Both the position numbers and the translations under genes were made by a program. 64,000 nucleotides of DNA from a bacterium BMS3Abin06 (GTDB lineage Bacteria; Nitrospirota; Thermodesulfovibrionia; UBA6902). Shown here piece after piece: positions 37,062 to 43,360 of this stretch. The stretch is from NCBI GenBank assembly GCA_002897895.1, contig BDSY01000091.1, positions 1 through 64,000 of the forward strand, read 5' to 3'. Position 1 is the first letter of the stretch. Each line of letters begins with the position of its first letter. The notes under the pieces are model-generated. The model did not search any database, was not told where the DNA came from, and saw only the letters and a list, made by a program, of their open reading frames with translations.

Positions 37062-37412
<351 letters not shown>

Positions 37413-37433: not shown

Positions 37434-38780
37434 TTATATTTTCACTCCTTTTGCAGACGGGTGTATCTGAAAATCGGGATATGCCTCGACTCCGTGCTCT
37501 CCTATATCAAGTCCTTCAATCTCTTCATCAGCGCTTACTCTTAATCCAACCGTTGCTTTTATTACCTTAAATAAAATAAATGCAGTCGGAAATACCCAGA
37601 GAAAAGCGGCGCCTATGCCTAACAACTGCACACCGATTATTTTCAGGGTAACACCATCTGCATTAAAGAGTCCTGCTGCAAGTGTTCCCCATGCTCCGCA
37701 GACACCGTGTACTGAAACAGCGCCGACAGGGTCGTCTATCTTGAGTACCTGGTCAATAAACACCACTGAGAGTACAACGATGATTCCGGCTATGAATCCG
37801 ATTAGAATGGCGCTTCCCGGAAGCACATTGAAACATCCGGCCGTTATTCCTACCAGGCCCGCAAGCGTACCGTTTAATGACATGGTGGCATCAGGTTTTT
37901 TGAATTTAATCCATGACATCAGCATTGCTCCGATTGCACCGGACGCTGCTGCCAGTGTTGTATTGACTGCTATTATTGCCAGATCCGTGGTTGCGGCTGT
38001 TGTGCTTCCGACATTAAACCCGTACCACCCGAACCAGAGGATGAATACGCCCAATGCGCCGATGGTGACGTTATGTCCCGGAATAGCCTTGGCCTCTCCA
38101 TTAACATACTTCCCTATCCTCGGACCGACTACGATAGCGCCTGCAAGGGCAGCCCAGCCGCCGACCGAGTGAACAACAGTTGAACCCGCAAAATCAATAA
38201 AGCCCAGTCCTTCCAGCCAGCCCGAACCTTTAAAGAGACTTCCCCATGCCCATGAACCGAATACAGGATAAATAAGGGCGCTTATTACTACGGAATACAG
38301 GAGATAACCTATAAACTTTGTCCGCTCTGCCATGGCTCCTGAAATAATGGTAGCAGCCGTAGCCGCAAAGACCACCTGGAACATCCAGAACGTCAGCGTC
38401 CACGGGTCTTTATCCGCGGCAAAGTCGCTGAGAAAAAAACCTGTTGTGCCGAACCATCCTGTTTTTGAGACGCCAAACATTATCGCAAAACCAATCGCCC
38501 AGTAAGCGACAGCGCCTATTGACATATCCATCAGGTTTTTCATGATAATGTTTGCTGCATTCTTTGCCCGTGTAAAGCCGGCTTCCACCATTGCAAACCC
38601 TGCCTGCATAAAAAAGACCAGGAAGGCTGCAACAAGGGTCCAGAGGAAATCCGCGTTTGTCTGCACTGTCTGGATTGCTTCGGCATTGCCTGCAATCGTA
38701 GGCAATGCCTCTTCAGCAAAAGCCGTTATTGAACCTGTTAACATCAAAGCTAACACTGTTAAAACTATCCATCGTTTCAT
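37434..38780 (-). CDS. amtB: Ammonium transporter AmtB
   Basis: 448 residues with a cleavable N-terminal signal peptide (about 1-22) and eleven predicted membrane helices. Conserved channel motifs include DFAGSTVVHSVGGWAALAGA (pore His), WFGWYGFNVGS and VHGVCGAWGTLAAGLF (second His). It imports ammonium at low supply and is blocked by unmodified PII. AAGGAGG lies upstream. It is preceded by a small Fis-domain gene and a sigma-54 promoter, which fits nitrogen-starvation control. Confidence 0.95.
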   Translation of the reverse strand: MKRWIVLTVLALMLTGSITAFAEEALPTIAGNAEAIQTVQTNADFLWTLVAAFLVFFMQAGFAMVEAGFTRAKNAANIIMKNLMDMSIGAVAYWAIGFAIMFGVSKTGWFGTTGFFLSDFAADKDPWTLTFWMFQVVFAATAATIISGAMAERTKFIGYLLYSVVISALIYPVFGSWAWGSLFKGSGWLEGLGFIDFAGSTVVHSVGGWAALAGAIVVGPRIGKYVNGEAKAIPGHNVTIGALGVFILWFGWYGFNVGSTTAATTDLAIIAVNTTLAAASGAIGAMLMSWIKFKKPDATMSLNGTLAGLVGITAGCFNVLPGSAILIGFIAGIIVVLSVVFIDQVLKIDDPVGAVSVHGVCGAWGTLAAGLFNADGVTLKIIGVQLLGIGAAFLWVFPTAFILFKVIKATVGLRVSADEEIEGLDIGEHGVEAYPDFQIHPSAKGVKI

Positions 38781-38865: not shown

Positions 38866-39054
38866 CTACCATCTTTCATATTCTTTATCCCCTCCTTTCC
38901 TGATTCCATATTTTTTGATTTTGTATCCAATCATTCTCTCGGTAATCCCAAGCCTTTTCGCCGCCTGTATCTTAACCCAGCTACATTCCTTAAGGGCCTT
39001 GATTATTTCTTCTTTTTCTATCTTTTCTATTTTGACTGGCAGAGAATCCATCAT
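38866..39054 (-). CDS. Stand-alone NifA-type Fis DNA-binding domain, 62 residues
   Basis: 62 residues. EKEEIIKALKECSWVKIQAAKRLGITERMIGYKIKKYGI is very like the C-terminal helix-turn-helix of NifA (positions about 14-52); the GITERMIGYKIKKYGI end is the recognition helix. The AAA+ and sensor domains of NifA are absent, so it cannot activate sigma-54 RNA polymerase alone. It may be a small DNA-binding regulator, or a remnant of a nifA gene. The putative sigma-54 promoter lies so close (start site about seven bases from the ATG) that the leader would be almost absent and no ribosome site is seen, which leaves the exact start open. amtB and glnK follow. Confidence 0.65.
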   Translation of the reverse strand: MMDSLPVKIEKIEKEEIIKALKECSWVKIQAAKRLGITERMIGYKIKKYGIRKGGDKEYERW

Positions 39055-39071
39055 ATCTGATATGGGATATA

Positions 39072-39087
39072 TGCTAAAACCGTGCCA
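39072..39087 (-). promoter_or_regulatory. Sigma-54 promoter for the Fis-amtB-glnK operon
   Basis: Minus strand TGGCACGGTTTTAGCA matches the TGGCAC-N5-TTGCA pattern, with GG and GC ten bases apart. It fits nitrogen-limitation control of amtB-glnK. Confidence 0.75.
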
Positions 39088-39131
39088 GATTGCAACTTAT
39101 TGAAATTAAAGAAAATTGCAGGGATTAATGA

Positions 39132-39176
39132 CTACAATATTGTAGTGCGACATACAATATTGTAGGACAATGTTGT
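39132..39176. promoter_or_regulatory. Cluster of palindromes upstream of the sigma-54 promoter
   Basis: CTACAATATTGTAG (39132-39145), then TACAATATTGTA (39153-39164), then ACAATGTTGT (39167-39176). Between the first two, 39141-39156 reads TGT-N10-ACA, the NifA upstream-activator pattern. Position, 60-110 bp before the promoter, suits an enhancer-binding protein. Confidence 0.6.
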
Positions 39177-39650: not shown

Positions 39651-39832
39651 TTAATCTGCAAAACAACAGGCGGCTTCCTTTATTGGTTGTATTTGTGAAT
39701 GTGTTGCCCAAAAGTACCATTTCTTTAAGCTTCTCTCAAATTCTTCTTTCTCGCTTTCTTTGTATATCTCCTGAAAGTTCTCTCTTATCTGCATTGCCCT
39801 TACTGTCTTTAAATTCATCCGTGGCATTTTTC
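39651..39832 (-). pseudogene. C-terminal fragment of an ISL3-family transposase
   Basis: In the frame ending at the TAA at 39653-39651 the sequence reads MPRMNLKTVRAMQIRENFQEIY, continuing to LKKWYFWATHSQIQPIKEAA. NLKTVRAxxIRExFQxIY and KKWYFWATHSxxxPIKEAA are characteristic of the ISL3 (IS204/IS1001/IS1165) transposase C-terminal region. Everything before and the last segment after are missing. It abuts and slightly overlaps the helicase 3' end, so insertion and decay of this element probably replaced the helicase's original C-terminus. Confidence 0.7.
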
Positions 39833-42800
39833 AGCCATTTTGTCGGTCGTAGCGATAATAAAAGCTTCCTTGTTACTGTCCAAAAGGTCATACATCTCGC
39901 CTGGGAGCTTTCTCTTTTTTTCATCCGGCCCGCTTTCAAGCAGACCTGCCGCTGATATAAAATCAAGTTCTTCGGCTGCTCGCTTTACCTGCGCCATAAA
40001 AAACTTTTGCAGTCTCCCACGGCGAAAATAGGTGATAAGCGCTCCGGCAGAAGTATCACAGGCATCCTGCCTGAGCCTGTGCATAGGGCTATTCAGGCTG
40101 GAAGCCTGAGCTGCAATGTATTGCCTTATTCTTTCTAACTGTTCAGTGCTTCGAATTATATGATCAAAAGATTCGGGCATCCACACAGGTCCTCTTTGAC
40201 CTGTTAGCTTGTTCAACTCATTGGCTGTATAGGATTTCCAGGAATGGGTAATCTTTGATAAAGTCCATTCACCTCTCGGAATTACAATAACATGGACATG
40301 ATTGGGCATGACAGCAAATTTATCCAAATAGTATCGTTCACCATCGAAATAGTTTAATGTTTTCTCAACAATTTGTTTACACTCTTTGTTGTCTAATATG
40401 CATGAGCCATGACCATTGTTCAATAAATCATCATATCGTTTGGAAAAAAGGCGAAAGTATTCAATCTTTTTATGTTGTTTCAGTTTTTTTACTTCAGAAG
40501 GGTTGGAGATTTTGTTGGCTTCCAGCCACTGTTCTCTCTGCCTTTTTATGTTTTCAGAAACTTCTTGCGGAATTGAATCATATAACCTGAAGGTAACAAA
40601 ATAAGAGGTTCCTTTCTGCTGCCAATGAGGCAAATTTCTCTGTTTTGTTTCGACTGATTTATACGGATCAAAATACATTATTATATCAGACATATCCTGG
40701 CCGGAATGATTGAAGCACAGGCTGGAAGCCTGAGTAACTTTTGCTGTGCGGGCTTTTTTGGGCAGGTGTTTTATTTTTTCAAAAAGGTCGGAATCCTTTT
40801 CGCGGATATCCCGGATAACCTGCAAGTATTTCAGTTCGCTCTCCTCCGCTTCATCATCGCCTTCCAGCGTTTTCTTTGAAATCAACCGGTCGAACAGCTC
40901 ATGGGAGCCGATAGGTTCGCCTTCGGTTAAAAGCTCCGCATCGCCGCCAAGCAGGGTTAAAAAGGCATTGATTTTCGCTTCTGCCGCTTCTTTCAGCTTA
41001 ATCTGGTCATTGGATTGTTTCGTAGGGAAAAAATTGAATGTATGGATAACATCAAAGGGTGTATCAACCCGGTTAATACGGCCCACTCTCTGCATCATTC
41101 GGGCCGGGTTCCAGGGGATGTCGTAATTGATCACCACATTGGCGCGGTGCAGGTTCACCCCTTCCGACAGGACTTCAGTAGCAATTAATATACGGTAATC
41201 TTCTTTTGGCCGGCGGGCCCGGGCATCAAAGTTTTCAAGCACTTTGTCACGGATAGATTCACCCGAATCGCCGGTAAACAAAAGAACCTTGCCGGGATAA
41301 TCTTCATCAATATTTTTAAATAAATAATTGGCAGTTTCCTTTGATTCCGTGAAAATAATAATATGATTCTTTTTCAGGACATTATTGTTTGACAGTTCAT
41401 TTTTAAATTTCAGAAGTTTCGGATCACGTTTAACGTTCTGCCAAAGTTTTTTGACTTCCGTCAGGATGGCATGGTCATGCTCTAAATCTTTTTTGAGTTC
41501 TTCTCTGAAATTTTTGCTGTCATATTTCTCCGCTTTACCTTCATCTATCAATCGCTGGACCGCCTCATCATCGTCGTTTTCTATAAATTCAAATATCTTG
41601 TTGGTGTGCTTCTTACTGACATACACATAGCCATTGTCCAGCTCTTTTATGAACATTTCGTAGGAACGCAGGAATCTGTCAACGGAATTTCTAAATGCAA
41701 AGAAACTGCTTTCCAGTCGTTTGACAAGCAGTATTTTCATAAACCGGCCCATGTTCCTCTGGGATTGCTCTTCAAGCTGATCAATCTTTCCCGCATAATA
41801 AAGCATGGGCATATAGCGAGCATATCTGAATTGATTTGCTATAAGGTCGATTGTTTTATTGAAGATATCGTCCTCATCATCATTGAGTTCGTAGAATAGC
41901 GGCTCAGGTTTTTTGACATCCGGAAATTCAAGCCCCTGTTCTTTTATGTCTTTGATGAAATATTTTTCAATTTCTGTTCGGGTGCAGCGTACCATTAAAT
42001 ATTTCAGGACCTTATCGCGAATTTCCCGTGCATTTGCTCTTACAGTATCTATGTATTTGGTATGGTCTTTCTGCCTGTCCAGTTTTTTAAGTTTTCTGTC
42101 CAGGCCATTAAAGAATGCCTCCAGGTCAGGCAGATTGGGAATGGTACTTTTTTTGGCTTTCTGAAACAGTTTAAGCAGGCTTAGAATATCTTTGGGAGCA
42201 TTGTTATAAGGCGTTGCAGTTACCAGGACAACTCTTTTCCCGCGGCATACTTCCGCCAGTTGCTCATAGGATATTGTAGTTTCGGTTCTGAAACGGTGCG
42301 CTTCATCGATGATAATATTGGTGTATTTGTCTAATCCCCTGTCCGGCAATTTATCTAATTTGCCGAGTGATTCAAAATCAGCCGGAACCCGGAAGTCCGA
42401 AAACACATTGGGCCAGGAACCGGGATTTGATTTTTCCAAAAGTACCGGCGGGGCGATAATAAGCGTTCTGCCGTCTAATTGACCTGCCAGCATAGCTGAA
42501 ATGTAGGTTTTCCCTAACCCCACGACATCGGAGATAAAAACACCGCCATATTCCAGAAGTATTTTTTTGGCGTTTAAGACAGCCTGCTCCTGATATTCGA
42601 GTTTTTTAAACTCCTGGGGCAGATATTTAATGAATACCTCATCTGTCCGGCTGAGCTCATCTTTGAAATATTCGTAGAGAAACTTCAGGTATAGCTGATA
42701 AGGAGTGATATTTTGAGTCAACCAGGTCTTGTCCTGAATGGTCTGAACATATTTTTCGCTGACATCTACTGCGTTACACCACAATTCCTCAAATTTGTTT

Positions 42801-43360
42801 TTTGCAAAATCATAGTCGCTTCTGTTTTTAAGTTCCACGTTGAATTCAAGATTGTCGACCAGCCCGGCTTGTGTGAAATTGCTGGAACCTGTGATAACGC
42901 GGCCGGTATCTCTGTCGCCCTCCTTAAATGTCATAATATAGAGTTTGGCGTGGATATTCTGTGACGGATAAGCCCTGATTTCCAGCTTGCTGTTTCTGAT
43001 CCATGCTATGAATTTATGTACGCCTTGTTCAACGTTTCTATTGTCTTCGGAAACCTCCATTTCATTCTGAACAAGATTTTCAACTTCCTGCTTTGCTTCC
43101 GCATGAGAGAAATCAAATGTTTGTCGGGTTGGTTTATTCGCCTTTCCCATCATTTCGAAAGTTTGTCTGCTTGTGCTGATACCAATCAGGATTCTGATTT
43201 TTTCCGTGCTTTCCAGTGATGGGTAGATGGCGTGAAACCAGCTTGAGTAGAAATATCCTGCGAGACAATCAAAAAATGACGTATCTTTAATAAGGACTTC
43301 AAATCTTTCTTTAAGACTTTGATTTTCTTCGTTTGTAATAAATGACAGATCGGTGTTCAT
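39815..43360 (-). CDS. PLD-domain DEAH helicase carrying an in-frame transposase insertion
   Basis: 1181 codons. Residues 1-250 hold a phospholipase-D-like domain (NIHAKLYIMTFKEGD with His137, ITGSSNFTQAGLVDN). Residues 250-560 hold a helicase motor (SDVVGLGKTYISAML, IIIDEAHRFR, LVTATPYNNAP). Residues 630-780 hold the second motor half ending MQRVGRINRVDTPF. From about residue 877 to 1101 the frame is occupied by a REP-associated tyrosine transposase; the helicase tail (ALITYFRRGRLQKFFMAQ onward) then resumes in the same frame. The end, KMAEKCHG, abuts an ISL3 fragment and may be truncated. PLD-helicases of this type are common in defence or restriction islands; activity of this copy is doubtful. 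No methylase or partner gene is next to it. Confidence 0.75.
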   Translation of the reverse strand: MNTDLSFITNEENQSLKERFEVLIKDTSFFDCLAGYFYSSWFHAIYPSLESTEKIRILIGISTSRQTFEMMGKANKPTRQTFDFSHAEAKQEVENLVQNEMEVSEDNRNVEQGVHKFIAWIRNSKLEIRAYPSQNIHAKLYIMTFKEGDRDTGRVITGSSNFTQAGLVDNLEFNVELKNRSDYDFAKNKFEELWCNAVDVSEKYVQTIQDKTWLTQNITPYQLYLKFLYEYFKDELSRTDEVFIKYLPQEFKKLEYQEQAVLNAKKILLEYGGVFISDVVGLGKTYISAMLAGQLDGRTLIIAPPVLLEKSNPGSWPNVFSDFRVPADFESLGKLDKLPDRGLDKYTNIIIDEAHRFRTETTISYEQLAEVCRGKRVVLVTATPYNNAPKDILSLLKLFQKAKKSTIPNLPDLEAFFNGLDRKLKKLDRQKDHTKYIDTVRANAREIRDKVLKYLMVRCTRTEIEKYFIKDIKEQGLEFPDVKKPEPLFYELNDDEDDIFNKTIDLIANQFRYARYMPMLYYAGKIDQLEEQSQRNMGRFMKILLVKRLESSFFAFRNSVDRFLRSYEMFIKELDNGYVYVSKKHTNKIFEFIENDDDEAVQRLIDEGKAEKYDSKNFREELKKDLEHDHAILTEVKKLWQNVKRDPKLLKFKNELSNNNVLKKNHIIIFTESKETANYLFKNIDEDYPGKVLLFTGDSGESIRDKVLENFDARARRPKEDYRILIATEVLSEGVNLHRANVVINYDIPWNPARMMQRVGRINRVDTPFDVIHTFNFFPTKQSNDQIKLKEAAEAKINAFLTLLGGDAELLTEGEPIGSHELFDRLISKKTLEGDDEAEESELKYLQVIRDIREKDSDLFEKIKHLPKKARTAKVTQASSLCFNHSGQDMSDIIMYFDPYKSVETKQRNLPHWQQKGTSYFVTFRLYDSIPQEVSENIKRQREQWLEANKISNPSEVKKLKQHKKIEYFRLFSKRYDDLLNNGHGSCILDNKECKQIVEKTLNYFDGERYYLDKFAVMPNHVHVIVIPRGEWTLSKITHSWKSYTANELNKLTGQRGPVWMPESFDHIIRSTEQLERIRQYIAAQASSLNSPMHRLRQDACDTSAGALITYFRRGRLQKFFMAQVKRAAEELDFISAAGLLESGPDEKKRKLPGEMYDLLDSNKEAFIIATTDKMAEKCHG
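40059..40732 (-). mobile_element. REP-associated tyrosine (Y1/RAYT) transposase insert with REP hairpins
   Basis: The encoded segment, starting near MSDIIMYFDPYKSVETKQRNLPHW, has the Y1 transposase pattern: GTSYFVTFRLYDSIP, the HUH motif in FAVMPNHVHVIVIP, GPVWMPESFDHIIRSTEQLERIRQYI with the catalytic Tyr region. Hairpins CAGGCTGGAAGCCTG lie at 40718-40732 and again at 40094-40108, with a variant CAGGCATCCTGCCTG at 40059-40073. Such REP hairpins are the cognate substrates of RAYT enzymes. The whole insert keeps the host frame open on both sides (about 675 bp, a multiple of three). Confidence 0.85.

Follow-up and report, generated by a model that had tools for sequence, protein, structure and literature searches.

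Fis is a free-standing protein of the HTH_8 class and has been proposed to descend from the DNA-binding domain of an NtrC-type activator, while the microProteins of eukaryotes are dominant-negative, single-domain relatives of transcription factors. Full-length NifA (TIGR01817) combines a GAF domain, an AAA+ domain with a GAFTGA motif and a C-terminal helix-turn-helix (HTH). In Gluconacetobacter the NifA domain, taken by itself, is sufficient to bind its UAS, with a Kd of 20 µM, and is a monomer in solution (PMC10590331). In Desulfovibrio vulgaris, DVU1949 is a single-component sigma-54 activator of several nitrogen operons including DVU1231-1233 (PMC4641369). In the open-access papers searched, no description of a stand-alone NifA/HTH_8 protein ahead of amtB was found. 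A gene for such a protein lies in the window, the whole stretch of 64,000 nucleotides from the Nitrospirota bacterium BMS3Abin06 that was analysed here.

The small gene (38866..39054, minus strand), located as an open reading frame with profile matches, encodes 62 amino acids. Its product matches Pfam HTH_8 with an E-value of 1e-13 (51.2 bits against a gathering score of 22) and its best NCBIfam match, covering residues 11-51, is the C-terminus of NifA (6.4e-9), in line with the sequence-only reading, which had described a NifA-type DNA-binding domain in a 62-residue protein. HTH_8 stands alone, as neither a GAF nor an AAA+ domain with GAFTGA accompanies it, and the product scores 35.1 against the NifA equivalog cut-off of 528.85. 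With a score above the gathering score and a position nested among NifA-type domains in the tree discussed below, it belongs to the NifA-type HTH_8 class. It shares with NifA the homologous C-terminal HTH_8 and the same sigma-54/IHF promoter logic, but differs from it in the missing GAF and AAA+ domains and in the recognition helix, which is ITERMIGYKIKKY in the 62-aa protein. Compared with NifA (T-P/S-RQ), two helix positions are changed in the small proteins, E replacing P/S and M replacing Q. Among the helices listed, TERM is found in 74/76 small proteins, and T-x-RQ in 21/27 long-frame proteins; L036 has SERT in place of TERM.

The AlphaFold (AF2) monomer model, built from a 66-sequence alignment (mean pLDDT 86.6), consists of three helices at residues 5-23, 28-35 and 39-49, and the N-terminal region of Fis, with its helix A dimer, does not appear in it. 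The nearest solved structures by fold are 2m8g (the DNA-binding domain of a sigma-54 activator), NtrC1 (4l5e) and Fis, with Foldseek E-values of 0.012 or weaker, which is what a protein of this size would be expected to give, while the nearest by sequence are 2m8g and 9qq6, a Nif-specific regulatory protein. The small protein thus resembles Fis as a free-standing HTH_8 protein with a matching fold (TM 0.74), but its model has no separate helix A and the two share 21% identity. It differs further in that its gene occurs in nitrogen operons behind sigma-54 promoters and its domain falls among NifA-type domains, in a tree without Fis.

Some match to the protein at E 1e-9 or better is present in all 37 genomes of the family. 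Among the matches listed, a short frame of 139 aa or less occurs in 32/37 of these genomes and long frames only in G007, G019, G020, G021 and G033. Of 183 relatives in the named collection 80 loci were retained, almost all from Nitrospirota. Among the matches listed for 395 genomes drawn from the phylum, short frames occur in a wide range of families within the class as well as in some beyond it. Dropping frames over 140 aa together with L112 reduced 110 distinct matches to 78 small genes, 77 of which have a 250 bp upstream stretch; L048, with a long upstream open frame, and L082, for which no start was found, stand outside most counts. The median dN/dS across 567 usable pairs is 0.10, with every pair below 0.5, a further 579 pairs being saturated in dS. 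Against its nearest relative (L038) the 62-aa gene has a dN of 0.049 and a dS of 0.159, a comparison of 7 and 5 changes that is weak alone. The start Met and the recognition helix are conserved among the small genes. These substitution patterns show the 62-aa frame to be a genuine gene, on which strong purifying selection acts. The Ka/Ks comparison that the sequence-only reading had called for is answered in this way, and a frame broken in close relatives, which it had named as grounds for abandoning the idea, did not occur.

Downstream on the minus strand follow amtB (37434..38780), the ammonium transporter gene, and glnK (37062..37400), the PII protein gene, as second and third members of the operon, both recognised as open reading frames with profile matches. 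amtB starts 85 nt past the small-gene stop and glnK 33 nt past amtB, so that the small gene heads amtB-glnK as originally proposed. This position is conserved in relatives: with 15 loci on short contigs set aside, 51 small genes are followed by 2.5 kb or more of sequence, and 44/51 have amt within 3 kb downstream on the same strand, one has glnK only and six have neither, three of the six having a porin. An outer-membrane-like protein, whose weak match to Pfam Gcw_chp is below cut-off, often lies between the small gene and amt. A second copy in the same genome (58 aa, about 70% identical to the 62-aa protein) precedes a glutamine amidotransferase and glnA. A second nitrogen island was observed at G000:C38 (L142, 1-8742), with palindromes and a sigma-54 promoter before amt-glnK, palindromes without a clear sigma-54 match before another amt, and then this same second copy of the small gene with the amidotransferase and glnA behind it. 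Contigs L060 and L100 each carry two nearby small genes ahead of nitrogen genes. Elsewhere in the window, an 1181-aa frame (39818-43360, minus strand) with PLD-like and SNF2/helicase regions contains an IS200-like (Y1) transposase domain at residues 993-1085, and copies of CAGGCTGGAAGCCTG lie at 40094 and 40718 within its span; it looks as if a helicase gene had received an in-frame insertion of a REP-associated transposase.

The operon is preceded by a sigma-54 promoter (-24/-12), TGGCACGGTTTTAGC, at 39073..39087 on the minus strand. A sequence match of this kind is unsurprising alone, with 0.45 expected per window, and it is the conserved placement that counts: a strong match lies no more than 60 nt upstream of the ATG at 67/77 loci, against 0.62 expected from shuffles. 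An IHF-like site, TTTCAATAAGTTG (39093..39105, minus strand), has one mismatch to the IHF consensus WATCAANNNNTTR. Such sites, with 0-1 mismatch, are found in 43/67 promoters against about 6.5 expected and mostly begin 17-18 bp before the -24 element. By sequence, the -24/-12 promoter and the upstream sites are those of a sigma-54 enhancer-dependent operon. Taking the predicted +1 as the 12th base after the -12 GC, the leader is 7 nt long (39055..39061, minus strand) and without a Shine-Dalgarno-like sequence. The good sigma-54 promoter and the very short leader of the sequence-only reading are both borne out, the latter as a prediction from the -12 element. Leader lengths predicted in the same manner for 67 promoters are 1-2 nt in 11, 3-7 nt in 13, 8-12 nt in 19 and 13 nt or more in 24, with a Shine-Dalgarno-like sequence in 0/11, 2/13, 10/19 and 24/24, respectively. 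The predicted sigma-54 messages of L016, L022 and L025 have only 1-2 nt ahead of the start codon; near-leaderless sigma-54 messages would be unusual, if the predicted +1 is right.

Further upstream lie the three palindromes noted in the sequence-only reading, which are candidate enhancer sites. Two are copies of TACAATATTGTA, at 39133..39144 and 39153..39164, containing ACAATATTGT at 39134-39143 and 39154-39163, and the third, ACAATGTTGT, is a sequence match at 39167..39176. ACA-N4-TGT, with the consensus TACAWWWTTGTA, is present in 64/67 small-gene promoters against 3.7 expected, usually twice, the motif counts being taken from promoters preselected for a strong sigma-54 match within 45 nt of the ATG. 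In most promoters the distance from the end of the last palindrome to the -24 element is 44-47, 55-56 or 65-67 bp, values that differ by about 10 bp, or one helical turn, as expected of enhancer sites. TACAANNTTGTA occurs at four places in the 2.98-Mb genome, all within two nitrogen loci. There is no genome-wide excess of it, since the reversed control pattern also occurs four times in 2.98 Mb; its count is chance-like and only its placement is not.

A TGT-N10-ACA site had likewise been reported upstream of the gene, and TGT-N10-ACA is the site given for nifH in the NifA study (PMC10590331), as opposed to the ACA-N4-TGT found here. The sequence is indeed present at 39141-39156, where it corresponds to the interval from palindrome 1 to palindrome 2, and the window holds 19 such sites against 10.3 expected. 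As an operator it was rejected: it occurs in 14/67 promoters (3.2 expected), but N9 and N3 spacings do so too (23 and 18), and among the tested spacings only ACA-N4-TGT has a fixed gap (64/67). By these spacing counts, TGT-N10-ACA arises from the way the palindromes are spaced and is not itself the conserved site. An operator dedicated to the small protein was also rejected, as promoters with and without the small gene are alike, with 1.88 and 1.74 perfect sites per promoter, the latter set having been found partly by the palindrome pattern, which biases its counts upward, and L244 and L249 having been excluded from it as chance matches.

The palindromes extend well beyond the small gene. In relatives they are present in the nifH promoters of 15/18 loci, the exceptions (L132, L133 and L135, in genomes G010 and G014) having a different nif promoter type; by coordinates, a NifA/VnfA-like activator frame lies near these three loci. 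In the 37 family genomes TACA-N4-TGT combined with a sigma-54 promoter gives 55 matches in 25 genomes, against 0 for the reversed control. The targets at 30 pattern loci, a few of which cover one same promoter, are the small gene (9), amt (5), nifH (2), nifB (2), urtA (1), a class-II amidotransferase-like protein (7; the name is inferred, and the protein has no NCBIfam match) and four others, at least two of which look like chance. A comparison set was formed from 26 genomes with no match, or just a weaker or long-frame match, to the small gene; at E 1e-6 the matches in this set are in frames of at least 327 aa, bar weak ones of 65 aa (G241) and 101 aa (G227). nifH is present in 8/26 of them, with ACA-N4-TGT in 8/8 of those nifH promoters, and palindrome plus sigma-54 pattern occurs in 8/16 comparison genomes (12 matches, against one for the reversed control). 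At L230, L236 and L228 the palindromes immediately precede porin-amt or porin, leaving no space for a small gene. Since comparison genomes keep the sites without a convincing small gene, the sites do not depend on it and the small gene is most likely an addition to the regulon.

The palindromes are most likely read by a full-length NifA-type activator, as we infer from this distribution. The search for a full nifA that the sequence-only reading had recommended was successful, as the genome encodes L003, of 512 aa, which scores 587 bits against the equivalog cut-off of 528.85. nifH occurs in 17/37 family genomes and was not found in the organism's own genome, which is 92% complete; the NifA-type protein therefore appears to serve general nitrogen limitation here, a role proposed even for genomes without nifH. 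This regulon resembles that of DVU1949 in placing several nitrogen operons under one sigma-54 activator, but belongs to another phylum, and the accessible part of that paper mentions no stand-alone domain protein (PMC4641369).

In a tree of 46 columns, which are few and leave most inner forks unsupported, 77 small genes group as a single clade (SH-aLRT 95) placed among NifA-type domains, Fis being absent from the tree. Closest to them among full-length proteins are L099 and L104, whose genes come immediately after amt-glnK; the recognition helices of both are TPRM, with the M of the small proteins, and the lead-in SL(K/R)D..IEREEI is common to all. The tree and these shared residues support the view that the small genes probably descend from a NifA-type protein. 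The amt-glnK promoters of L099 and L104 have no ACA-N4-TGT palindrome, which means that site and small gene may have originated at different times.

That this is a real, selected gene of NifA-type origin, set in a sigma-54 regulon at the head of its operon, is strongly supported by comparative sequence evidence. For its function we propose, at a probability of about one half, that it encodes a NifA-derived DNA-binding microprotein which would be made when the regulon is on and would compete with the activator for its own sites as negative feedback. Under nitrogen limitation the full-length activator (GAF-AAA+-HTH_8) would bind the ACA-N4-TGT palindromes; together with IHF and sigma-54 RNA polymerase it would switch on amt-glnK, glnA, nifH, nifB, urtA and others, with the small gene leading the transcripts from the amt-glnK or glnA promoters. 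The small protein keeps the HTH fold and, lacking GAF and AAA+, cannot activate sigma-54; it would most likely occupy the same palindromes as a homodimer or as a mixed dimer with NifA, and thereby damp the regulon with a delay. The likeness to eukaryotic microProteins would be one of working, in that the DNA-binding domain of a larger regulator is made by itself under that regulator, but there is no homology and for the small protein a negative effect is a proposal. The antagonist put forward in the sequence-only reading thus fits, but had been confined to its own operon, a limit that does not hold, because the palindromes are common to the wider nitrogen regulon and an antagonist would act throughout it.

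This proposed brake draws on the isolated Gluconacetobacter domain binding the UAS alone, but the same source has such a domain, without helix A, as monomeric and weak (PMC10590331). Against a hexamer a domain of this kind would compete poorly, unless it were present in abundance or joined with NifA. The two altered recognition-helix positions may shift DNA preference, nothing in the small-gene promoters, which have no extra or different sites, marks a dedicated operator, and several of these promoters are predicted to give near-leaderless messages. The changed helix, TERM in 74/76 small proteins against T-x-RQ in 21/27 long frames among those listed, is also what would be seen in a regulator with targets of its own, timed only by its operon position; this is improbable, although the observation set against it, that no second conserved motif was recognised within 170 bp upstream of regulon promoters, is a weak point. 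A positive role, in which the protein binds a palindrome and stabilises DNA geometry or NifA binding, would suit the Fis-like fold (TM 0.74 by query), the helical phasing of the sites and their number, two to three per promoter, which would allow mixed occupancy. Such an enhancer co-factor is unlikely, given that the promoters and the activator persist in genomes that have no convincing small gene, so that this architecture does not need it, and that the architectural role is already filled by the IHF-like site.

The other explanations fare worse. The 1-2 nt leaders of 11/67 promoters and 3-7 nt leaders of 13/67, with Shine-Dalgarno-like sequences in 0/11 and 2/13, would fit a near-leaderless first frame serving mainly operon translation or message stability, but conservation is in the amino-acid sequence, above all in the recognition helix, making this very improbable. 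As the exact complement of a missing domain, the small protein could lend DNA binding to an AAA+ activator without one; all 16 extracted own-genome activators, however, end in an HTH-like domain (L149 weakly matched, 7.0 bits) and in a 17th the end matches HTH weakly, so none needs the domain supplied, and this split arrangement was rejected as scarcely tenable. Homology to the NifA C-terminus without all the other domains had also suggested a relic of nifA. Descent from a NifA-type protein is upheld by the tree, but decay is not, as purifying selection (median dN/dS 0.10, all pairs below 0.5), a single clade across many families and a conserved start and promoter leave a functionless pseudogene ruled out in practice.

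Negative feedback at the activator's sites may, more tentatively, be the work of a widespread microprotein family of single origin, in which a freed and helix-retuned domain was built into the operons of its own activator and became a regulon-wide enhancer brake under NifA as general activator of nitrogen limitation. If true, control would be exerted at the enhancer, unlike the usual control of enhancer-binding proteins through their sensor domains, and the family would be a second instance, beside that proposed for Fis, in which a domain of a sigma-54 activator has turned into a protein of its own.
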